A stretch of 10,392 nt of DNA from Boseongicola sp. SB0675_bin_26 (GTDB taxonomy: Bacteria; Pseudomonadota; Alphaproteobacteria; Rhodobacterales; Rhodobacteraceae): positions 1 to 10,392 of the forward strand of contig VYCX01000030.1 of the NCBI GenBank assembly GCA_009843725.1. The letters run 5' to 3'. The translations under genes were made by a program, and so were the position numbers. Under the pieces are notes generated by a model. The model made no database searches. It was not told the DNA's origin and worked only from the letters and a program-made list of their open reading frames with translations. Shown here piece after piece: positions 2 to 10,392 of the stretch; within the stretch, counting starts at the first letter, position 1, and each line of letters begins with the position of its first letter.

Positions 2-892
2 ACCGGAATCACGACAGGACCGACTGTCGTCACCTCACGACCGAACGCTTACAACAAAAGCGAAGAACCCGTCCAGACGGAAGTCGTTGCCGCGGCTGGA
101 ATGCTTGGCAAGGAAAGTCCTACTTGGGACGACTTCGTCGAAGGGTGTAGGGGACTTCAGAAGTTCATGGACGAAAAGAACAGCGGCTACAGCGACTTCG
201 AGCGAAAGTACAGAGAATCGCACGATGGCCGGGCCTGGGCGGATGATGCCCTCAAGAATGTCCTCGGGATCTATCGATATCAAGGTGGCGTAACGCAGCT
301 ACGAGGTGTGGCGAAGCAGCACTCGCCGAGCGCCACCAAGAACTTTGCGACCGAGGTCGTCGAGGACCTGAAGGCAGGGAAACTCGTGATCTTCGATCAG
401 TCGACTGGTGATCCGGAGCAGAACGTCGGTGCAGCCGAACGCATACTTTGGGAGATTTTCAATTCCCAGAAGCGCGCCTTCATTGAACCGCGACTGGATG
501 GTGACGGTCAGCTCGTGCCGCCTTCGCCAGTCATGGTCTACCTTGAAGAGGCCCACAATCTTCTGCCGGCGGCGGGCGGGAAGGACGAGCTCAAGACCAT
601 CTGGGCGCGCACCGCGAAGGAAGGCTCGAAGTACAGGATCGGCATGGTCCTGGCAACGCAGGAACCGTCTTCTGTGATGCCGGCGATCCTGAAGAACACC
701 GACAACTGGTTTGTCGCGCATCTCAACAACGCCGACGAGATTCGAGCCTTGTCGAAGTTCTACGACTTCGAGGACTATTCCCATCAGATAAGGTCGATCA
801 GCGATCCGGGCTTCGTACGCATGCGCACGCTGTCAAACCCCTACACGATCCCCGTGCAGATCGACCTGTTCACGGTCGACGGAGGCGCGTGA
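2..892 (+). CDS. herA: HerA-family DNA translocase ATPase, C-terminal part (5' end outside window)
   Basis: The reading frame is open from the left edge with no stop, so the ATG at 101 is probably internal and the N-terminal Walker A half is missing. About 296 codons are visible. A Walker B strand (VMVYLEEAHNLL, coded near 531-563) is followed by ARTAKEGSKYRIGM, a sensor-type LATQEPSSV and NTDNWFVAHLNNADEIRAL, the usual order in HerA/DUF87 ATPases of the FtsK-HerA superfamily. Family members form hexameric rings that pump double-stranded DNA, generally into or through a partner nuclease. The next gene, one base after this stop, encodes a NurA-like nuclease, which supports the HerA rather than the VirB4 or FtsK assignment. 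The frame is intact to its TGA at 890-892. I am confident of the family. The target DNA and trigger cannot be read from the sequence. Confidence 0.88.
   Translation, partial: TGITTGPTVVTSRPNAYNKSEEPVQTEVVAAAGMLGKESPTWDDFVEGCRGLQKFMDEKNSGYSDFERKYRESHDGRAWADDALKNVLGIYRYQGGVTQLRGVAKQHSPSATKNFATEVVEDLKAGKLVIFDQSTGDPEQNVGAAERILWEIFNSQKRAFIEPRLDGDGQLVPPSPVMVYLEEAHNLLPAAGGKDELKTIWARTAKEGSKYRIGMVLATQEPSSVMPAILKNTDNWFVAHLNNADEIRALSKFYDFEDYSHQIRSISDPGFVRMRTLSNPYTIPVQIDLFTVDGGA
881..885 (+). promoter_or_regulatory. Shine-Dalgarno for nurA
   Basis: GGAGG lies inside the last codons of the herA-like gene, 8 nt before the GTG at 894. It decides the GTG start of the nuclease gene and suggests coupled translation of the two. 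Confidence 0.7.
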
Positions 893-893
893 C

Positions 894-2225
894 GTGCCCT
901 ACGAAAACCAGCGCGCGACGGGCGAAGCCCTGATCTCGCTGCAGCAGAGCAAGCTCTTCGAAGAGTTCAAGGGAAGGATCAGGCCGCCCCCGCCGAGGTC
1001 AGAAGAGGCGCTGGAGCCGACGGCCATTCCGGAAGCTGAATTAGCAATCAACAGGGTGATCACGATCGACGGATCATTGGTCACCGAGACGCTGAAGGAC
1101 GGGTTCCCCGGTGCCGAGGCAAGCCTGGTCCAGCTCGCGCTGGTCTACATCGACCTGCGGAAGCTCAAGGCGGAGGGTCCGGGGCGGATCATCCCGCCTC
1201 GGGCATTCAACGAGATGGACGACGCGCGCACGTTGCAGACGGTCCTGCCGGGTCGGAACGTAGTGCGTAACGACGGGTTGCAGCCAAGGGATTTCTTTCG
1301 TCATTCGGTGTTCGAGGCACTGCAGGGCAAGATCGTCCAGAGCGGGCACGAGACGCTCCTGGAGACCTTCGAGCATCTGGTAAAGGGTCGCCACGGCGAG
1401 TTCAGATGCCCGCATGACGAACTGTGCGGAAACCAGCTTCGGCCGATCACCGGATGCGGCAAGTGTGCCTGCGAGAGGGACAAGGAAATCTACAGCACCG
1501 ACCAAATGCGGTTTCACGAGCGCTTCAGCGAGATGGGACCGAACGGGGAGCCTCACGGAGAAGTCATGCGCTTCCTGGAGCTCATTCTCCTCCTGAACGT
1601 CCTTCGCTATTTCGTGGCGAACGACGATGCCGTGCACGTGCTGCCCAGAATCGCGTTCGTGCTGGACGGGCCGTTGGCGGCCTTCGGTCAGTTCGCCTCG
1701 GTCGTCCCGCGCGTGAAGGAGGAAGTTCGGCGCATAAGCGAGGAGTGCAGGGACCGCACCGGAAAGGACCTCCTTCTGTTCTCGCTCGTCAAGTCGGGGC
1801 AATTCGTCGAGCATTTCGAACGCATTGACTTTGATCCGAAACTTGGTCCTGGTGGCAGGTTCCAGGCGCGCACGGCCCTGCTGCCGAACATCGCCTACAT
1901 TCACAGGAACATCGTCTTTCGTGCGCCGGATGCAAAGGAATGGGGGAAGAGCACCTACTTTGGCAGGGCGGTCCTGTACAAGAGCCGCACCGGGCAGAAG
2001 ATGGTTGTCAACACGGCGATGACATCGGACGCGTCCGACGACCTGTCGAACACGACCTTGGCGGCATACACCCGGCTTCCGGAAACGCTTGGGATCGTGG
2101 ACAGGCTTTCCACCTACCTGTTCGAAGGCGGCTTCGTGCCGATCGTGAGGGCTCATTCGCATGCAGCGATCCCGTTGAAGATTGGAGGCGAAATCTTGCA
2201 GAGCCTCTTCGAAGACGATGTTTGA
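894..2225 (+). CDS. nurA: NurA-type nuclease with Cys-rich insert
   Basis: A 443-residue protein starting at GTG, 1 nt after the ATPase stop and with GGAGG 8 nt upstream. The N-terminal acidic motif is ITIDGS (D59), the characteristic first metal-binding site of the NurA fold. The second acidic strand is FVLDGPLAAFG (D258), and the C-terminus carries a VRAHSHAAIP segment (H421, H423) typical of the end of NurA domains. Known NurA proteins are metal-dependent 5'-3' exonucleases and endonucleases that work in a complex with HerA rings. Between the two acidic motifs sits an insert with CPHDELC and CGKCAC (Cys 172, 178, 188, 191, 193), possibly a zinc-binding module. It is longer than typical archaeal NurA, in line with bacterial defence-linked relatives. 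The stop overlaps the methyltransferase start by 8 bp. Family call is firm; exact activity is inferred. Confidence 0.83.
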   Translation: MPYENQRATGEALISLQQSKLFEEFKGRIRPPPPRSEEALEPTAIPEAELAINRVITIDGSLVTETLKDGFPGAEASLVQLALVYIDLRKLKAEGPGRIIPPRAFNEMDDARTLQTVLPGRNVVRNDGLQPRDFFRHSVFEALQGKIVQSGHETLLETFEHLVKGRHGEFRCPHDELCGNQLRPITGCGKCACERDKEIYSTDQMRFHERFSEMGPNGEPHGEVMRFLELILLLNVLRYFVANDDAVHVLPRIAFVLDGPLAAFGQFASVVPRVKEEVRRISEECRDRTGKDLLLFSLVKSGQFVEHFERIDFDPKLGPGGRFQARTALLPNIAYIHRNIVFRAPDAKEWGKSTYFGRAVLYKSRTGQKMVVNTAMTSDASDDLSNTTLAAYTRLPETLGIVDRLSTYLFEGGFVPIVRAHSHAAIPLKIGGEILQSLFEDDV

Positions 2226-3366
2226 CAAGCCGTTCGACGACTGGCGCCCGCGCACGCCGGAGGGTCGGTGGGCGGGCTTCGGGCCGTACTATGCCATGTT
2301 CCCGGTCAGCTTCGCTCGCGCGGTGATCGGGCGATTCAGCTGCGAGGGCGACACGGTCATCGACCCGTTCTGCGGCCGCGGGACGACGAATTTCGTGGCG
2401 CAGGCGATGGGCCGGCATTCCTTGGGTTGCGAGCTCAACCCGGTGGGATGGTTGTATGCCACGACCAAGACGCGGCCGGCTCGGCAGTTGGGCCGTATCC
2501 TCATGCGCATAGACCAGATTGCCGCCTTGCGCGTGGAGTCGGACTACATCCCCGAGAACGAGTTCCAGGACTGGGCATGGTGCCGCGACGTCCTGGCGTT
2601 TCTGAACAGCGCAAGGCGAAACCTCGACTGGCGCCGGTCGAAGGTTGATCGCACCATCGCCGCGATCATGTTAGTGTCCCTGCACGCCAAGATTGGCGGC
2701 GGGCTTTCCAACCAGATGCGGCAATGCAAGTCGCTGTCTCCCGAGTATTCGGTAAGGTGGTGGCGGCAACGAGGCATGAGGCCACCTGCACTGGATCCTG
2801 CGGGCTTTCTCAAGGCGCGGGTCAAATGGAGGTACGCCAAGGGGTTCGTCGACGCCACATGCGAGGCACAGGTATTTCTGGGAGATGCGCGGCGCAAACT
2901 GAAGCGATACGCCGGTGATCCTGCCTCTCTGGTGCTTACGTCACCGCCCTATTCAGGCGTCACGAACTACCGGTACGACAACTGGATACGCCTTTGGGCG
3001 CTAGGTGAGGGACCGTCACTGCCGAACGGGGCTCCCGGGCATCGATACGGTCATCAGGGTAGGTATCGGGCGCTGATCCACGAGGCGTTCGCGACCACCT
3101 CGCGGAAGACCCGCGAAGACGCGGCTGTCTTCGTGCGAACGGATGCACGCCGGTTCACGCTCGAAACGACAATTGCCGCAATGAGGAGTGCGTGGCCACA
3201 TCTGATGCTGTATGGCAGAACGACGAAGGCCCGTCAGCTCACCCAGACAGCCCTCTTTGGCGACAGGTCGACAAAGCCCGGGGAAACAGACCTGGTTGCG
3301 CTGCCGTGCGGCACGCGACCGCCTGTTGAATTCGTTGAGGTCGGGACAAGGACGTTGTCGTCTTGA
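2218..3366 (+). CDS. DNA methyltransferase (amino-methyltransferase, TSPPY type)
   Basis: A 382-residue protein from ATG 2218, overlapping the nuclease gene by 8 bp. A TTG at 2182 is a possible longer start, but it would add 12 residues that only repeat nuclease coding sequence in another frame. The SAM-binding motif I is DPFCGRGTT at residues 49-57, and the catalytic motif IV is TSPPY at 241-245. About 185 residues separate them and include SNQMRQCKSLSPEYSVRWW, which may belong to the target-recognition part. The order motif I, spacer, motif IV is alpha-like. SPPY is most frequent in N4-cytosine enzymes but also occurs in N6-adenine ones, so the modified base is open. No frameshifts are seen. 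No separate restriction endonuclease gene follows, so the HerA-NurA pair next door is the natural candidate for the DNA-cleaving or processing partner. Confidence 0.85.
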   Translation: MFDKPFDDWRPRTPEGRWAGFGPYYAMFPVSFARAVIGRFSCEGDTVIDPFCGRGTTNFVAQAMGRHSLGCELNPVGWLYATTKTRPARQLGRILMRIDQIAALRVESDYIPENEFQDWAWCRDVLAFLNSARRNLDWRRSKVDRTIAAIMLVSLHAKIGGGLSNQMRQCKSLSPEYSVRWWRQRGMRPPALDPAGFLKARVKWRYAKGFVDATCEAQVFLGDARRKLKRYAGDPASLVLTSPPYSGVTNYRYDNWIRLWALGEGPSLPNGAPGHRYGHQGRYRALIHEAFATTSRKTREDAAVFVRTDARRFTLETTIAAMRSAWPHLMLYGRTTKARQLTQTALFGDRSTKPGETDLVALPCGTRPPVEFVEVGTRTLSS

Positions 3367-4189: not shown

Positions 4190-4591
4190 TCAGGACTTGC
4201 CAGAATACTCTGCGTCGGTAACGTGTTCCATCCAAGTCACGTTGGAGCCGTCGAGCGCCTCTTGGATCGCGATGTGGGTCATTCCGGTATCAGGTGCAGC
4301 GCCATGCCAGTGGCGTTCTTCGGGCGCGAACCAGACAACATCGCCAGAACGGACCTCGTGAATTCGGTTACCAGATGTCTGCACAAGACCTTTGCCCGCG
4401 GTCACGATCAGTACCTGGCCAAGAGGATGCGTGTGCCATGCAGTTCGGGCACCAGGTTCAAAGGTCACTGTCAGCGCACGGACCCGGGAAGGGTCAGGTG
4501 CCATGATCACCGGGTCAATTCGAACCCGACCTGAAAACGAGTCCTCCGGTCCGGCCCGGGACGGGCGCGATCCGGCCTGCAGAATCTCCAT
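4190..4591 (-). CDS. Cupin-domain protein, manganese hydroxynitrile-lyase-like
   Basis: A 133-residue single-domain cupin. A GGAG sits 7 nt before the ATG on the - strand. Metal-binding residues are H53, H55 and Q59 (AWHTHPLGQ) and H94 (EERHWHG). These are the same positions and spacing I recall for the manganese-dependent cupin hydroxynitrile lyase of Granulicella tundricola, and the sequence aligns without gaps over nearly its whole length, including the MTH and QE.LDG segments near the C-terminus and the ending MEHVTD. Q110 is also kept, while residue 40 is Leu. Related proteins are widely annotated as COG1917 cupins, and most have no tested substrate, so cyanohydrin cleavage is only one possibility. 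It appears intact although it lies among decayed mobile-element genes, and it may be carried cargo. Confidence 0.88.
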   Translation of the reverse strand: MEILQAGSRPSRAGPEDSFSGRVRIDPVIMAPDPSRVRALTVTFEPGARTAWHTHPLGQVLIVTAGKGLVQTSGNRIHEVRSGDVVWFAPEERHWHGAAPDTGMTHIAIQEALDGSNVTWMEHVTDAEYSGKS

Positions 4592-4689: not shown

Positions 4690-4731
4690 TGGGCTAAACC
4701 CAGCACAAGCACCGAATCCGCCACAGGATTC

Positions 4732-5359
4732 TCATGCCCTTGGCTTCCTGATCCCATTCTTCTTCATCCAGTTCGTGAGGTTGTCGGGCGTCGTGTTGCA
4801 GCGCTTCGCGATGAACTTTCGGGCCGAACCGTTCGTGAGCAGTGCCTCGATCTTGGGACGAAACGGATCGAGCTTGCTCTTGCCTGGCCCTTTCGGCCGT
4901 CCAAGCGGCCGTCCGGAGACCTTCCGTGCCCTCAGCGCTTCCTTTGGTTCTGGCCGAAAGCGGGTCGTGTTGGATCTGGGCGGCCATCGAGAACGCCATG
5001 ACAATGATCCGGCTCTGGATCGTTTCGTCGAGCCTCCAGAATCCCTTGATGGCGTAGATCCTGATGCCGGCGTCCGAGGTGATGGACAGGATTTCCATGC
5101 ATTCGAGCATCAAGCGTCCGAGCCGGGAAAGCTCGCTGACGACCAAAACGTCACCTTCGCGCAGTTCCTCCAGAATGTCCGCGATCCTTCGCTTGCGCCA
5201 CGCGATCCTGCCGGAAGCCTTCTCCTCAACGAACTCGACCCGGCCGAGGTGCTCCTTGCAGGCTCAAGCGAGGATGTCTGCCCGGTTCCTGTCCAGGTCC
5301 TGCCCCTGCCTGGACACCCGGAGACATCCAATGGTCCTGGGCTGTCTTTTGGCAGTCAT
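4732..5359 (-). pseudogene. Serine recombinase (resolvase/invertase family), broken
   Basis: The intact ancestor would have been about 208 residues from the ATG at 5359. The N-terminus has IGCLRVSRQGQDLD with the presumed nucleophile serine at residue 16, then SELSRLGR with the active-site arginines, FSMAAQIQHD before the long helix, and a C-terminal helix-turn-helix (SARKFIAKR through NLTNWMKKNGI). Two lesions are visible: an in-frame TGA at 5266-5264 (codon 32), and an extra A in the A-run at 4943-4945 that shifts the frame at TKEALRARK. The total length, 628 nt, is one more than a multiple of three, consistent with one inserted base. Only the correct-frame parts look like protein. It begins 3 bp after the stop of the next recombinase gene and cannot make a functional product unless the lesions are sequence errors. 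Confidence 0.85.
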
Positions 5360-5362
5360 CGG

Positions 5363-5887
5363 TCAAGATTCGAATAAGGTGCCGTTCTTCGACATGAAGG
5401 ACATCTCTTCCGATGGCTTGATCAATGACATTCGTTCTACGGAACGCGCAGTGAAAACGAACCTTTTCTGCGGCCAGCCGCCTGATCGTTTCGCCGCCTC
5501 GATCCCGGCACGCTGCCGGTCACGAATGAACTTCAGCTCCACGTCGGCCACCATGCCAAGAACGGTCACTACCGGGAGACCGAGATCTCCCGCAGTCGCG
5601 ACCTCGGGCTCCGGCACGCGTAGTGACGCGCCATTGCCATCCAGCTCGTGCACCAGATTGAGAACGTCGCCGGTCGAGCGGCCGAGCCGGCCCAGGCAAT
5701 TCACGGCCAGCTCGTCGCTTTCCCGCAGGAAGTCCAGGATGTCCAGCAGTTCGGCGCGGCCTTCGCGCGAGACTCCGGAGCTTGTCTCGGTACGCATGAC
5801 CTCGCAGCCCGTCGCCTCGGTCTTGGCTTTCTCGATTTCGAGGTCTTGGGTCGACGAGCTGACTCGGGCATGCCCGATGCGGGGCAT
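5363..5887 (-). CDS. Serine recombinase/resolvase with abnormal C-terminus
   Basis: A 174-residue product. The catalytic domain fits the Tn3-resolvase/Hin family: IGHARVSSSTQDLE (R8, S10), SREGRAELLDIL, then LGRLGRST and FIRDRQRAGIEAAK at the start of the long arm helix. The usual LDRLAR motif reads LGRLGR, so the conserved aspartate is glycine (residue 66). After residue 134 the sequence no longer resembles a resolvase: the glycine-arginine hinge and the helix-turn-helix are missing, and the last 40 codons run through less GC-rich DNA that looks like the upstream region of the following recombinase. It therefore seems truncated or fused at its 3' end, and DNA binding is doubtful. Its start has only a weak AGG upstream. 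Likely origin is an integrative or transposable element. It may be a pseudogene. Confidence 0.7.
   Translation of the reverse strand: MPRIGHARVSSSTQDLEIEKAKTEATGCEVMRTETSSGVSREGRAELLDILDFLRESDELAVNCLGRLGRSTGDVLNLVHELDGNGASLRVPEPEVATAGDLGLPVVTVLGMVADVELKFIRDRQRAGIEAAKRSGGWPQKRFVFTARSVERMSLIKPSEEMSFMSKNGTLFES
5433..5446. repeat. Inverted repeat CGTTC-TACG-GAACG
   Basis: A perfect 5-bp inverted repeat with a 4-base spacer inside the aberrant 3' part of the upstream recombinase gene, about 75 bp before the start of the broken recombinase. It could be an operator or a recombinase half-site left from that gene's original promoter region. Confidence 0.3.
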
Positions 5888-6201
5888 GGCAGCCTGTCAC
5901 ATTGGGGTGCCTTGCGTCCGATACTGTCACGGATCGCGACATTCGACCCGTTTTTGATGCTGCGCGGCGTCACGTCCGGTCGTCACCTGCGGATCTGCCC
6001 TTTTGTCACACAGGTCGGGGAATATGGATTCGAGTGCCCACCTGCCTTCGGGCATTGCCATCCGCGCTTCCAGTTCGGCATTCAGCCCAGCCCACGCCGC
6101 GGGCGGTCGTTACCCAAGTCCATCGGTCATGAATCCCCTTGTGTCCAAGTCCGTTGTCTTGCCTCCCTGCAGCTTCAATGATCAAGTCACGGGGCGGGCG
6201 C
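5888..6201. other. Intergenic region upstream of recombinase pair
   Basis: No recognisable gene in 314 bp. It holds several copies of TGTCAC or GTCAC (about 5895, 5925, 5969, 5982 and 6004) and the palindrome described separately. Small frames on both strands resemble nothing I know. Confidence 0.4.
5925..5941. promoter_or_regulatory. TGTC/GACA palindrome, possible recombination or operator site
   Basis: TGTCACGGATCGCGACA is an imperfect 17-bp palindrome (13 of 17 positions symmetric) 38 bp upstream of the recombinase start. Tn3-type resolvases bind half-sites starting TGTC, and their res sites lie next to the resolvase gene. Only this position and the TGTC ends support the idea. Confidence 0.35.
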
Positions 6202-6408
6202 ATGAAGAACTTTCCTCATGTCAATGGGAAGACAGTCGATCCTCGACGCGGTAACGTCACCGACCAAGACGTTCTCAAGACGCTCATGATCGCGCTCCGT
6301 GATGTCCACGCAGAAGGCGAAATCTGCATCGACACGGCCGAATACGGCCAGGTCATGAAGGGATTCCTGCTTCAGCACATGATGCTGCAACGCGGCCGTT
6401 CCACCTGG
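6202..6408 (+). CDS. Unrecognised coding-like stretch, possibly gene remnant
   Basis: From an ATG at 6202 the + strand encodes MKNFPHVNGKTVDPRR, then DQDVLKTLMIALRDVH and DTAEYGQVMKGFLLQHM. The balanced acidic, basic and hydrophobic composition and the G/C bias in third codon positions look like real coding sequence for about 68 codons. Beyond about 6408 the frame stays open but turns to low-complexity glycine/serine-rich sequence and runs on into the ArsC-like gene, which argues that the true 3' end was lost. The antisense frame over the same bases is also open and I cannot fully exclude it. I do not recognise a family and see no clear ribosome-binding site. Confidence 0.25.
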
Positions 6409-6700
6409 TCGTCTCCAGACTCTTCAACAGTCTGCAAATCCGGTCAGGCCCCTGGGGGCGGAGAAAATGGCCGTGACGAGGCGGTCGGCACGCGACTTGG
6501 CGCGGGTGGCGAAGGACAGGCGGGCCAGGGCCATGCGCGGCAATCGCAAGAGACCGGGACGGGACCAACGCCACGTCTTGAAACCGGTCCGACTCACGGG
6601 GGCCAGACAGAAATCGGGAATGCCCAAAAGGCGAATGCGCTCCGTGCCGCGGTCGCCCTGTCCAGAAGGCATGGCATCCTCCCTTGCGACGCAAGGCCCG
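6409..6700. other. Stretch with no recognisable gene
   Basis: Open frames exist on both strands (for example 6424-6672 on - and 6467-6751 on +), but they are arginine- or glycine-rich and match nothing I know. A perfect hairpin, CCTTGC-GAC-GCAAGG, is at 6682-6696, just before the promoter of the next gene. Confidence 0.4.
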
Positions 6701-6703
6701 TCC

Positions 6704-6732
6704 TTGAGAGCGGGGCGCAGTCACCATATACG
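6704..6732 (+). promoter_or_regulatory. Sigma70-like promoter for ArsC-family gene
   Basis: TTGAGA (6704-6709, 5 of 6 to consensus) and TATACG (6727-6732, 4 of 6) are separated by 17 bp. Transcription would begin at about 6739-6741, some 23 bp before the ATG at 6763. Confidence 0.5.
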
Positions 6733-6762
6733 ATCCCAAAGCCTTTCATGACGGGATCAGGA

Positions 6763-7095
6763 ATGCCGACGCTCTACGGGTTGAAGAATTGCAGCACTTG
6801 CAGGGCGGCAGTTCGGGAACTGAAAGGTGCCGGCAAGGACGTGACATTCGTGGACGTTCGCGAAAGCCGATTGGACCCCGACGTCGTCGACCGTTTCCTT
6901 CAAGAGTTTGGAGACGCTCTCGTCAACCGTCGCTCGACCACCTGGCGCAGCCTCTCCGAATCCCAGAGACAGGGCGCGCCGGACAGCCTGATCGCCAGGC
7001 ATCCCTCAGTCATGAAGCGTCCCGTCATCGTAGAGGGCGAAATGGCCACGCTTGGCTGGAATGCAGCGGCAAAGGCACGGCATCTCGGTGAATAG
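6763..7095 (+). CDS. ArsC/Spx/YffB-family thioredoxin-fold protein
   Basis: A 110-residue protein with the usual length and layout of the ArsC-like family. It starts MPTLYGLKNCSTC, giving a CxxC pair at C10 and C13, followed by the FVDVRE strand, the LVNRRSTTWR segment and MKRPVIVEG with the conserved RP (R86-P87). Such proteins (YffB, Spx/MgsR) have a thioredoxin fold with an inserted helical part. YffB is thought to be a glutathione-dependent thiol reductase, and a true arsenate-reductase role is not implied. No arsenic genes are nearby. The frame is open far upstream (from 6139), but domain similarity begins at 6763. An in-frame ATG at 6748 would add five residues. AGGA lies very close to the chosen start, so 6748 cannot be ruled out. 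Confidence 0.85.
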   Translation: MPTLYGLKNCSTCRAAVRELKGAGKDVTFVDVRESRLDPDVVDRFLQEFGDALVNRRSTTWRSLSESQRQGAPDSLIARHPSVMKRPVIVEGEMATLGWNAAAKARHLGE

Positions 7096-7129: not shown

Positions 7130-7681
7130 TTATTTGTTCCTGTCAAAGGCCGCGTAGAGCAATCGGTCGACCGAAATCGGCCCGCCGCCCCGGAAGAGCA
7201 GGTAGAGAAGCAGGAAGACCCAGAAGGCGCGCTGGTCCAGGATCACGGCGTCCGAGACGTGGTCAAACCACGCGCCGGTCTCTCCGCCATGGCCGAAAAT
7301 GTCCGTGAGGCTCTGAACCGTCACGAAACCGATCATGCCGAGCGCGGCGAGGCGGGTGAACAAGCCGATGACCAAGAGGCACGGAAGCACGAATTCCGCC
7401 CATGTTCCGGCGAGGATCACAAGTTTCTGGAAGAGCGTTGCCTGGCCGATGTCATAGAGCACGGCTTCGGCCTCCTTGGGGAAGATCTGCGCGAAGGCAT
7501 TGAAGCTCGGCGATACCAGATTGATCAGGCCTTCGGGAATCTTGGTCAGCGCGGAGTTGAGGTAGTAAACAAGCAGGACCGCCGCAAAAATGAAGCGCGC
7601 CAGCGTGGTCAGCACCGGCGTGGATGCCGGTTCGATCAGCGCAAGCAGCCGGTCCGGCAGCAGCAGGATATTGCTGGACAT
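7130..7681 (-). CDS. DoxX-family membrane protein of bufferin operon
   Basis: A 183-residue inner-membrane protein with about four membrane segments (near residues 24-43, 84-106, 108-125 and 150-164) and the DoxX-type ending LLFRGGGPISVDRLL. A GGAGGA inside the end of bufC, 9 nt before the ATG, gives a clear ribosome-binding site, and only 5 bp separate it from the bufC stop. A DoxX protein as the fourth gene is a common arrangement in bufferin operons and in the gold/copper-induced gig operon of Cupriavidus, where it is called gigT. Its role is not established; suggestions include membrane electron transfer or peptide and metal handling. It is the last gene of the operon and converges on the ArsC-like gene. 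Confidence 0.87.
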   Translation of the reverse strand: MSSNILLLPDRLLALIEPASTPVLTTLARFIFAAVLLVYYLNSALTKIPEGLINLVSPSFNAFAQIFPKEAEAVLYDIGQATLFQKLVILAGTWAEFVLPCLLVIGLFTRLAALGMIGFVTVQSLTDIFGHGGETGAWFDHVSDAVILDQRAFWVFLLLYLLFRGGGPISVDRLLYAAFDRNK

Positions 7682-7686
7682 GAAAG

Positions 7687-8436
7687 CTATCCTCCGATTT
7701 CGATCAAGGTCTTCATTTCGACCAAGAGGGTGAGCACCACCGGCAGTTCAAAGCCTTGGGATGCGTCTGATGCCTTGTCCATTGCATCCCCGAATGTCGC
7801 ACCCGTCAAGAGCGCACTGACGAATTCCGCCCCGCCTGAAGGCAGCAGCCGGGGAAAGGGATCCAGATCCGGCCGGGCGACCAGCACGTCTTCAGCGGCC
7901 ATTTCCGGGCTTTTCGCACCGTCCTCGACATTGAAGCGCCAGATCGAGAGGATCGGCCAGGACGACCGCACCAGCCGCAAGGAAGGAGCGAGCAGCACGC
8001 GAGCGCGGACCAGCGCATCGGGCGGCAGTGCCTCGAGTTCCGCAGGGCTGATCGGGTCCGCGTCTGCCGCGTGATAGCTTTCCCGGATTGCAAGTTCGAG
8101 CCGTGCAACGTCCGGCAGGTAGCCGGTTTTCCGCGTGGGCTTGAAGTCGGCCAGGAACGAGGCCATGTCGGCTCCGAAATGCATCATCAGCGGCGAACGC
8201 GGCGGATGACGGCGCAGGTACGCAGAGGCCAGCAGCTTGAAATTTTCCTGCCCGACCAGTTTGCGGATGACCGGAAAGCCCACCTCGAGCGCTTCGGTCA
8301 AAGAGACCGCGACATTGTTGCGATAGACGTCGAACCGGCGCCCGGCCGGGCGGCCCTCGCCGTCCCTCAGGCCGTTCGGGCGTGCGGCCTCCGGATCCAG
8401 AAGCGCTTCCCGGAACGTGGTCTGGTCGACCGTCAT
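7687..8436 (-). CDS. bufC: BufC-like DUF2063 protein, bufferin maturation partner
   Basis: A 249-residue protein with the N-terminal DUF2063 signature: [45 protein letters not shown] and [11 protein letters not shown]. Its ATG overlaps the bufB stop as ATGA (8436-8433), the classic sign of translational coupling and the reason I prefer it to the longer frame start at 8517. DUF2063/MbnC-type proteins act with DUF692 oxidases, delivering or holding the precursor peptide so that cysteines can be modified. BufC and its relatives GigB and HvfC are found next to such oxidases. The C-terminal half is less conserved but contains FNVEDGAK and [11 protein letters not shown] in the expected place. It is intact. 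Confidence 0.87.
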
Positions 8437-9293
8437 GCGTTTGCGGATTCCAGGACCCTGGCTGCACGGCTGGCCTCGGCCTTGAGGACTGGCCAATCGG
8501 GAACGTCGTTGTCCCATTCTATGAGGCTTGGCCTGGGGCCGGACTTCCTGATCGTGTACTCGAACAGTGACCAGACCGGGTCCGCGACTTCGCGGCCATG
8601 ATTGTCGATCAGCAGGGGCGCGCCGTGGTCGTCTTCATCGTCGTCATGCCCGCCGAGGTGGATTTCCCCGACCAGTTCGACGGGGAACGCGTCGATGTAC
8701 GAAACCGGATCAGTGCCAAGATTCGTGGCGCTGACAAAGACGTTGTTCACGTCGAGCAGGAGCCCGCAACCGGTTCGTCTGGCGATCTCGCGGAGGAAGT
8801 CGGTCTCGGGCATCGTGGACTCCTCGAACGCGAGATAGGACGAGGGATTCTCCAGCAGCATGCGTCGTCCCACGACTTCCTGGACTTCGTCGACATGCTC
8901 GGCAACGCGGGCGAGGCTGGCCTCGGTGTAGGGCAGGGGCAGCAGGTCGTTGAGAAACGCGGAGTCGTGGGTCGACCACGCAAGATGTTCGGAAAAGCTT
9001 GCCGGATCAAGCCAGTCGACGAGGTGCCTGAGCCGAGCAAGGTGCTCGGAATCCAATGAACCTTCACCGCCGATGGAGAGACCGACGCCATGCACGGAGA
9101 ACGCGAACCGCTCCGCGAGATGCCTGAGCTGCGCGATGGGCCGACCGCCGTCGCCCATGTAGTTTTCGGCGTGAATCTCCAGCCAGGCAACCGGCCCGGC
9201 ATCGTTCACGATCTCGCTGAAGTGCTGCGGCTTGTAGCCGACCCCTGCCGCATCGGGCAGGCGGGCAGATCTGTGGGTGGTGGCGTCCAGCAT
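8433..9293 (-). CDS. bufB: BufB-like multinuclear non-heme iron oxidase (DUF692)
   Basis: A 286-residue DUF692 (MNIO) protein with a TIM-barrel fold. Residues fitting the family's metal-ligand pattern are visible: LEIHAENYM near 38-46, HGVGLSIG (H68), SEHLAW (E102, H103), LENPSSY (E149, N150), LDVNNV (D181, N183), IHLGGH (H212, H216), IDNHG (D230, H232) and IEWDND (E259, D261). Characterised relatives MbnB, TglH, ChrH and BufB use two or three irons to rewrite cysteines in ribosomally made peptides; bufferin enzymes make 5-thiooxazoles from cysteine. Its partner BufC is encoded directly after it with an ATGA overlap, and the precursor is encoded 63 bp upstream. The start at 9293 has no strong Shine-Dalgarno, so BufB output may be kept low relative to the precursor. 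Confidence 0.9.
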
Positions 9294-9356: not shown

Positions 9357-9662
9357 TTAGCTCGGCAGGTCGCGATCGAGCGGCTCGAGCGAACCCATGC
9401 GTGGCGTGCCATCGGCCATTGTGGGCAACTCGATCTCGGCGCAGGTGCCTGTGTCGACAAGAGTCCAGGCATTGCCTTGGTAGTCGACGGTGGAGGTGCC
9501 GGAGCAAGTCGTGCCGGGACCGGCCGCACAGTCGTTCTCGCCGGCAAGCGAAACGCCGTAGCACTTCTCCTTGGTCTGGGCTTGAGCGGGCACAGCCAGT
9601 GACGCAGCCAATGCGGTCGCAAGTGCGCCCGCGGCCGCCAAGGTCTTGGTCGTTTTCGACAT
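9357..9662 (-). CDS. bufA: Bufferin precursor peptide (DUF2282)
   Basis: A 101-residue precursor. The start at 9662 is chosen because GAGGA lies 7 nt upstream and the product begins directly with a signal peptide ([12 protein letters not shown], hydrophobic alanine/leucine core, then VPAQA with likely cleavage after A28). A longer frame from 9716 would bury it. The mature part has four cysteines (C34, C45, C53, C74) in [18 protein letters not shown] and TGTC contexts, followed by the family's C-terminal tail with [13 protein letters not shown]. This is the DUF2282/bufferin-1 type, exported to the periplasm after BufB and BufC modify some of the cysteines, and reported to bind copper and possibly other metals. 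It is the first gene of an apparently complete bufA-bufB-bufC-doxX operon. The role is known from relatives and inferred here. Confidence 0.88.
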
Positions 9663-9756
9663 TTGGATGTCCTCATTCGGTTGAAATTTCGTCGTTGAAT
9701 CGACCCGTGCATTCAAGACGGGATCGAATCAGACTTCCATTCACGGCTGCGTGTGC

Positions 9757-9809: not shown

Positions 9810-10392
9810 CTATGCCGCGCCGACCTGGGAGCGTACCCGGCCATCCCGCCGCAGGTCCGGCGGGAGAGCATCCGCTGCAAGCTCCCGGACGGCGTCGGCG
9901 AGCGGACGGGTGTCGGTTGCCTTGCTGCCGAGCCTCCTGACGCTCACGGTCCCTTCGTCCACTTCGCGGCGGCCAATCGCCAGGATCACCGGCACCTTGC
10001 CAACCGAATGCTCCCGAACCTTGTAGCTGATCTTCTCGTTCCGGATGTCGGGCTCGGCGCGCACGCCGGCGCTCTGAAGCTCGGCGGCAATCCTGGCGGC
10101 ATGCGCGTTCGTGTCCGACGTGATCGAGGCGACGACGACCTGACGCGGCGCCAGCCAGAACGGAAGCCGGCCTTCGCTGCTCTCGATCAGGATGCCAATG
10201 AAGCGTTCAAACGAACCGAGCGCGGCGCGATGCAGCATCACGGGACGATGCCTGTCTCCGTCCTCGCCAACATAGGTGGCGTTCAGCCGTTAAGGCAGCA
10301 CAAAGTCGACCTGGTGGGTTCCGCACTGCAAGTCGCTCCCGATCGCGTCGTTCAGGACGAATTCCAGCTTCGGACCGTAGAACGCGCCATCG
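9810..10392 (-). pseudogene. thrS: Threonyl-tRNA synthetase, C-terminal part with internal stop
   Basis: Reading the - strand from the right edge gives [30 protein letters not shown], then a TAA at 10292-10290, then [17 protein letters not shown] and [13 protein letters not shown] (class II motif 3, with the histidine matching the third zinc ligand of ThrRS), and the anticodon-binding domain ([14 protein letters not shown] through [12 protein letters not shown]) to the TAG at 9812-9810. ThrRS normally has Glu at the stop position, so GAA to TAA explains it as a single base change. Everything after the stop remains in frame and conserved. Ending at the stop would remove motif 3 and the tRNA-binding domain. 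Because thrS is essential, this is probably a second, dead copy or a base error. The 5' part is outside the window. Confidence 0.85.

Follow-up and report, generated by a model that had tools for sequence, protein, structure and literature searches.

The TdpABC system marks DNA by phosphorothioation: TdpC inserts sulfur into the backbone, and DNA without this mark is degraded by TdpAB. The system includes a modification gene, as the set of genes described here probably does as well. In T. kodakarensis, the HerA–NurA pair starts at the ends of duplex DNA and breaks down both strands, and the available part of that report has its authors suggesting antiviral defence (PMC12977600). The ICETh1 operon of Thermus thermophilus, according to the accessible text, encodes the type IIG enzyme Tth111II, a NurA-like protein, TdtA (a HerA/FtsK hexamer) and an N4/N6 methylase (PMC5365140). 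Here we analyse a locus at which genes for HerA, NurA and a methyltransferase (MTase) lie side by side, and we put at about 70% the probability that this trio is a compact and mobile defence module that resembles restriction-modification systems.

The window, that is, the whole stretch of 10,392 nucleotides analysed, is an entire contig, and the features of interest within it are as follows.

1–52, no strand assigned: end of a repeat, probably an insertion sequence, shared by five contig ends, abutting and interrupting herA.
53–892, plus strand: 3′ part of a gene for a HerA-like ATPase/translocase (C-terminal ~280 residues), by homology to Ruegeria HerA.
Window edge to stop at 892, plus strand: the open HerA reading frame, 296 residues.
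GTG at 894 to stop at 2225, plus strand: gene for a NurA-like nuclease of 443 residues; the start is common to homologues.
ATG at 2218 to stop at 3366, plus strand: gene for a methyltransferase, probably of DNA, of 382 residues (PF01555, PADLOC and alignment).
4694–5146: piece of a serine recombinase (Pfam, 27 bits).
5363–5887: piece of a serine recombinase (Pfam, 84 bits).

The tight packing of the three genes described in the original prediction agrees with these coordinates: a 1-nt gap separates the stop of the HerA frame at 892 from the NurA start at 894, the start that the homologues share, and the MTase start at 2218 overlaps the end of the NurA gene at 2225 by 8 bp. Degraded transposase and recombinase genes had also been described as neighbours. 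The recombinase is present in the two pieces listed above, but a Pfam search of five minus-strand frames between 3016 and 4093 detected no transposase.

HerA models from NCBIfam and PADLOC match residues ~175–277 of the 296-residue frame with scores below the NCBIfam curated cut-offs. Models for the HerA components of known anti-phage systems align with the C-terminal part of the protein, the PADLOC mad8 model doing so weakly, at 33–41 bits. When a profile of HerA homologues was used to search the PDB, the best match was TdpA (1.6e-27), with 99.4 bits versus 55.4 bits for the next entry, and TdpA is also the best PDB match of a Vibrio phage HerA. The Pfam NurA model gives 14.1 bits with the window protein (cut-off 21) and 36.2 bits with its homologue L025; a search of the window's own genome with this model returned no match at E 0.001, which marks the limit of its sensitivity. 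Searches of PDB sequences with NurA gave no match from the single sequence or from profile A1, and only weak rows came from profile A4, namely RPA70 and zinc-finger chains with E values of 0.05 and above. The best PDB matches of an AlphaFold2 model of NurA are NurA-family nucleases; TdpB is the closest of all, so that the fold is TdpB-like, and repair NurA is structurally farther from the model. An insert in NurA contains four cysteines, of which Cys172, Cys178 and Cys191 are kept in 28 of 28 NurA proteins and Cys193 in 26 of 28; this insert may bind zinc.

The match of the MTase to PF01555 scores 53.3 bits and is confined to the motif I part. Its motifs run in the order DPFCGRG (motif I, residue 49) and TSPPY (motif IV, residue 241), with a helical insert between them, and a family alignment of 26 sequences was assembled. 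A PADLOC Type II MTase model matches at 2e-17 over residues 36–275 of a longer, 394-residue frame, equivalent to residues 24–263 of the 382-residue protein. The nearest folds to the AlphaFold2 model of the MTase (pLDDT 88) are tRNA MTases. Other classes of DNA MTase are present in sister HerA–NurA systems, and we infer that this MTase acts on DNA. PADLOC-DB 2.0.0 gives no match for the tested NurA proteins and only partial or generic ones for HerA and the MTase; such compact three-gene systems are apparently not included there as such.

Among 8,000 scored candidates from a search of 5.8 billion proteins, 162 are NurA relatives with an E value of 0.001 or better; an identical NurA in the protein database comes from a contig of 27,976 bp. 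When 84,980 species genomes were scanned with the NurA alignment, a procedure restricted to loci holding the peptide patterns used, 49 pattern matches were obtained, and 25 of these encode a NurA relative. At all 25 of these loci, HerA is encoded directly upstream and an MTase of the window type directly downstream on the same strand. Because the order is the same in 25 of 25 cases, the trio is not a chance arrangement, and the original prediction, which staked itself on such trios recurring elsewhere and on an MTase that does not occur independently, has held on the first point and, for full-length copies in the 16 genomes searched, on the second. The trio is found in scattered bacteria (Pseudomonadota, Chloroflexota, Acidobacteriota, Actinomycetota, Verrucomicrobiota, ‘Candidatus Entotheonella’ and Dojkabacteria), and related genes occur in archaea and phages. 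No fourth conserved gene was seen among frames of at least 80 residues around the 25 loci, where some neighbourhoods are short. The idea of one was rejected, the widest other cluster spanning four of the 25 loci; its L002 member is an ABC-type ATPase.

Further copies of the window-type MTase were sought in 16 genomes (17 of the 25 loci were submitted and L005 was absent). In all 16, the trio copy is the only full-length match, at 461.7 bits or more, the other matches being partial and scoring 54 bits or less. The proposal that the MTase is an independent orphan was not borne out by these genomes. Of 12 plasmids with a more distant MTase relative, 10 have no NurA or HerA match.

The modification and nuclease genes of the trio are inherited together, as their association at 25 of 25 loci and their correlated divergence indicate. 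Pairwise distances of the three proteins, computed for 23 rows that leave out L004, L013 and L017, correlate with coefficients of 0.83, 0.74 and 0.64 (0 of 2000 permutations each); correlation of this kind is also expected from shared descent alone. On supported branches of the NurA tree, taxonomic groups are broken, a gammaproteobacterium and a Dehalococcoidia bacterium, for example, being joined twice. It is this conflict with taxonomy that points to joint transfer of the trio. Its distribution is patchy, the window's own genome being the sole match among 198 genomes of the same family and 398 of the same phylum.

Related HerA–NurA pairs, recovered with wider alignments on plasmids, phages and proviruses, also occur with other methylases. 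Searches with NurA returned five plasmid records, all under 26% identity, and two phage records, both from Vibrio. In Vibrio phage 10N.286.55.C4_PE001, genes for an integrase, HerA and NurA are followed by those for a methylase of the D12/Dam type, which is encoded on the opposite strand, and an excisionase. A first scan of viral contigs with the close NurA alignment matched 20 stretches by pattern with no relative among them, and scans with wider alignments gave 3 + 5 loci on seven distinct contigs. A D12 methylase adjoins in five of these (L040, L041, L044, L045 and L047) and lies 2.1 kb away in L043. L040 and L041 are 99.96% identical and both begin at NurA, with HerA outside view; L047 ends after HerA and L046 inside NurA. 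In Chloroflexota, 11 of 400 genomes matched, one of them by a weak partial hit and three being L007, L010 and L017. The other seven loci were fetched (H1, H3 and H7 are not among the fetched loci): three have a D12 methylase (L079, L081 and L083), three have a PF01555 methylase of beta order (L077, L080 and L082), that of L077 lying on the opposite strand about 380 bp away, and L078 has no MTase beside HerA–NurA. Plasmids of Halorarius (L038) and Deferribacter (L039) encode MTases homologous to that of the window, with E values of 1e-19 and 1e-35, respectively, and the Tolypothrix plasmid (L037) has no MTase adjacent to the pair. Across 44 loci, comprising the window, the 25 trio loci, four plasmid and phage records, seven viral loci and seven from Chloroflexota, an MTase is adjacent on either strand in 40: 28 of the window type, nine D12 and three of beta order. 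The classes are clustered on a HerA tree of 28 rows, in which six label changes are needed versus a minimum of three and a shuffled mean of 12.0; the long branches L083 and L038 are placed unsurely. Three MTase classes on one HerA tree require that the marking enzyme was exchanged at least twice, with the motor and the nuclease retained.

One motor-nuclease served by exchangeable marking enzymes argues for a restriction-modification logic. In such a scheme, the MTase would mark host DNA. HerA, presumably a hexamer, and NurA, presumably a dimer, would load on DNA, and HerA would translocate along it, feeding the active sites of NurA. Methylation at MTase sites would block loading, translocation or cleavage, limiting degradation to unmarked, incoming DNA such as that of a phage, and the four-cysteine insert of NurA is a candidate reader of the mark. 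Self-marking coupled to processive degradation had been proposed for this locus at the outset, and it gains support at the level of comparison from the constancy of the trio, its correlated divergence, its conflict with taxonomy, its relation to TdpA and TdpB and the other MTase classes beside related HerA–NurA pairs, prophage ones included.

The copy in the window is damaged. Bases 1–52 recur identically at five contig ends (C137, C161, C175, C476 and C531), beyond which the sequences diverge. Since collapsed copies of an insertion sequence appear as shared contig ends followed by divergence, this segment is probably the end of an insertion sequence, and the end may be IS66-like (GTAAGCG); the first 60 bp have no match among plasmids. 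Homology to herA begins at base 53, corresponding to residue 461 of the 738-residue Ruegeria HerA, so the open frame starts with 17 residues that are not HerA. The remainder is 70% identical to residues 461–734 of the Ruegeria protein and retains VYLEEAHNLLP, presumably the Walker B region, while the part with Walker A is missing. Extension of herA beyond the contig edge had been suggested, but the edge is the repeat, and the first ~460 codons, including Walker A, are absent from the rest of the assembly (92% complete) in a search with full-length HerA at E 0.001. The repeat and the lack of any other herA piece together suggest that the gene is interrupted and not simply cut by the contig edge. 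The local copy of the trio can probably no longer restrict DNA and would serve at most as an orphan methylase. The missing part of herA could sit in an unbinned contig.

Decay elsewhere runs in the same direction. Of 27 loci (the 25 loci, the window and L039, in which an IS605-type insertion splits HerA), six have an interrupted HerA or NurA and none an interrupted MTase, stops flagged in the L005 MTase and the L023 NurA being read as the genes' own terminal stops. The sparing of the MTase fits restriction-modification logic, but by gene length alone the chance that it escapes all six breaks is 0.19. Some frameshifts in the decayed loci may be assembly errors.

The comparison of the surroundings of the trio drew on 84 proteins flanking 14 of the 25 loci and, as controls, 83 proteins encoded in 14 distant stretches of the same contigs. 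The output, a tally of overlapping models with 25 families shown and not a count of proteins, is only suggestive of clustering with known defence genes. Ten proteins were then picked, of which seven have a match and three have none. Among the papers listed in a search of the open-access PMC literature, no description of a HerA–NurA–methylase defence system was found, and the available parts of two surveys of HerA/FtsK defence systems do not mention NurA (PMC12839542, PMC10853773).

The genes might instead serve DNA transfer, HerA pumping DNA out of or between cells as TdtA does, NurA trimming ends and the methylase protecting or marking a mobile element. The accessible text on ICETh1 reports that tdtA and nurA are required for DNA donation (PMC5365140), and the movement of the trio between lineages in the NurA tree, the integrase genes near HerA–NurA in L036 and L078, and the resolvases (two) and IS66 transposase (one) among the 84 flanking proteins would suit such a role. 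However, no type IIG enzyme belongs to the conserved neighbours at the 25 loci, and phage-type integrases do not appear among the 25 commonest of the 95 Pfam families recorded for the flanking proteins. Moreover, the ICETh1 methylase has minor effects on transfer, as far as the available part of that study goes (PMC7767461), whereas in the trio the MTase is the constant partner. We consider a transfer function unlikely. Abortive infection, in which HerA–NurA would kill the cell when triggered by phage and the methylase would be a sensor or antitoxin-like guard, as in a variant of HerA–SIR2 or HerA–DUF4297, draws on the match between the C-terminal part of HerA and the models of anti-phage systems. 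Yet no other HerA chain in the PDB matches as well as TdpA, the effector has the fold of NurA, no SIR2 or DUF4297 effector was found beside HerA, where the conserved partner is NurA-like, and the role of guard would have to be filled by each of three different MTase classes; this makes it a doubtful explanation, less probable than transfer.

End-resection HerA–NurA is linked to mre11/rad50. Neither that link nor broad conservation in the lineage was seen here, there being no conserved fourth gene and a sole match in 198 same-family genomes. A DNA-repair pair active in end resection, with the methylase adjacent by chance or for strand marking, would accord with the action of archaeal and Deinococcus HerA–NurA on DNA ends (available parts of PMC9960219 and PMC12977600). 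The trio, however, is patchy and in conflict with taxonomy rather than vertically inherited, the same MTase family is present at 25 of 25 loci, and the NurA model is structurally nearer to TdpB than to repair NurA; the T. kodakarensis study, in its available part, itself doubts a resection role (PMC12977600). Of the alternatives weighed, repair is the least probable.

We therefore return to the restriction-modification-like reading. It is an even bet whether HerA–NurA pairs of the TdpAB type make up a general and so far unnamed class of restriction-modification systems, a single kind of translocating nuclease being joined to interchangeable markers: phosphorothioation by TdpC, D12 adenine methylases in prophages and Chloroflexota, beta-order methylases and the motif-I-first TSPPY methylase of the window. 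A ring translocase-nuclease would then be controlled by the DNA mark that its partner happens to make, the motor either reading several chemically different marks or being licensed by the methylase protein, and TdpABC would be one form of a wider class and not an isolated thermophile curiosity. How one motor-nuclease family might distinguish sulfur-marked, base-methylated and unmarked DNA would thereby become a testable question.

The operons of MADS, BREX and DISARM are larger, and no further gene is conserved at the trio loci. The trio resembles these systems in the weak mad8 match of its HerA and in methylation-marked defence, as treated in the available part of PMC12904381. With HerA–SIR2 and HerA–DUF4297, it shares a HerA ring and a partner effector; the effector families differ, and the accessible portions of those reports name no methylase as a component (PMC11291478, PMC12948488). 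Both of its protein families are those of archaeal and Deinococcus HerA–NurA, but the trio is patchy, and no methylase partner is described for the archaeal pair in the available part of PMC12977600. ICETh1 also brings these three kinds of gene together in a single mobile operon, the comparison being by kind of gene and not by sequence; it differs, according to the accessible text, in its order NurA–HerA–methylase, its extra type IIG enzyme and its demonstrated role in DNA donation (PMC5365140). TdpABC (PDB 8wfd, 8wet and 8y1k) likewise has a HerA-type ATPase and a NurA-type nuclease. The proteins differ in size, with 443 residues in the trio NurA versus 358 in the TdpB chain and 738 in Ruegeria HerA versus 586 in TdpA, and NurA has no detectable sequence match to TdpB. 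Where TdpABC has the sulfur-inserting TdpC, the trio has a methyltransferase, the only gene conserved beside HerA–NurA at the 25 loci among frames of at least 80 residues. Since no further gene is conserved beside the MTase, the trio would work like TdpABC without being TdpABC and, by analogy, is best described as a methylation-marked, TdpAB-like system.

The SNQMRQ region of the methyltransferase, residues 161–180 (window 2698–2757), lies within the helical insert between motif I and TSPPY, and its conservation across phyla equals that of the catalytic motifs. Given this conservation, either the methyltransferase has one and the same target in all lineages or its insert does not serve to recognise the target.

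Beyond the HerA-NurA-methyltransferase genes, the window carries the following features.

Other features of the window (coordinates, strand, description)
4190–4591, minus: cupin protein; NCBIfam (R)-mandelonitrile lyase, 191.8 bits (cut-off 140)
4694–5146, minus: serine-recombinase (Resolvase) piece 1; weak, partial match of 27 bits
5363–5887, minus: serine-recombinase (Resolvase) piece 2; domain match
6139–7095, plus: 318-aa open frame with an ArsC-family domain at its C-terminal end; domain match
7130–7681, minus: DoxX; bufferin-type cluster
7687–8517, minus: DUF2063/HvfC-like partner; bufferin-type cluster
8433–9293, minus: MNIO maturase BufB; NCBIfam, 374.6 bits (cut-off 310)
9357–9716, minus: DUF2282 precursor-like gene; bufferin-type cluster
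9810–10241, minus: aminoacyl-tRNA synthetase anticodon-binding domain (PF03129); 143-aa frame

Both Resolvase pieces are likely to be mobile-element remnants. The minus-strand segment 7130–9716 is identified as a bufferin-type RiPP cluster. The PF03129 domain forms a frame of its own close to the contig end.

Related HerA-NurA pairs elsewhere have neighbours of their own. In two Chloroflexota loci (L078:7419–10948 and L081:6552–9964), NurA is followed by a UvrD-like helicase gene, assigned by Pfam in the former and by resemblance at the start of the sequence in the latter, and by a gene of about 280 aa; this gene order may represent a further variant. At a third Chloroflexota locus, an Mrr-type restriction endonuclease domain (L080:1–573; 124.5 bits) is encoded immediately upstream of a beta-order methyltransferase-HerA-NurA set. 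In Vibrio phage 10N.286.55.C4_PE001 (L036:1–6052), integrase and excisionase genes flank HerA, NurA and a D12 methylase, and the interval between integrase and excisionase is a common site of prophage accessory genes.
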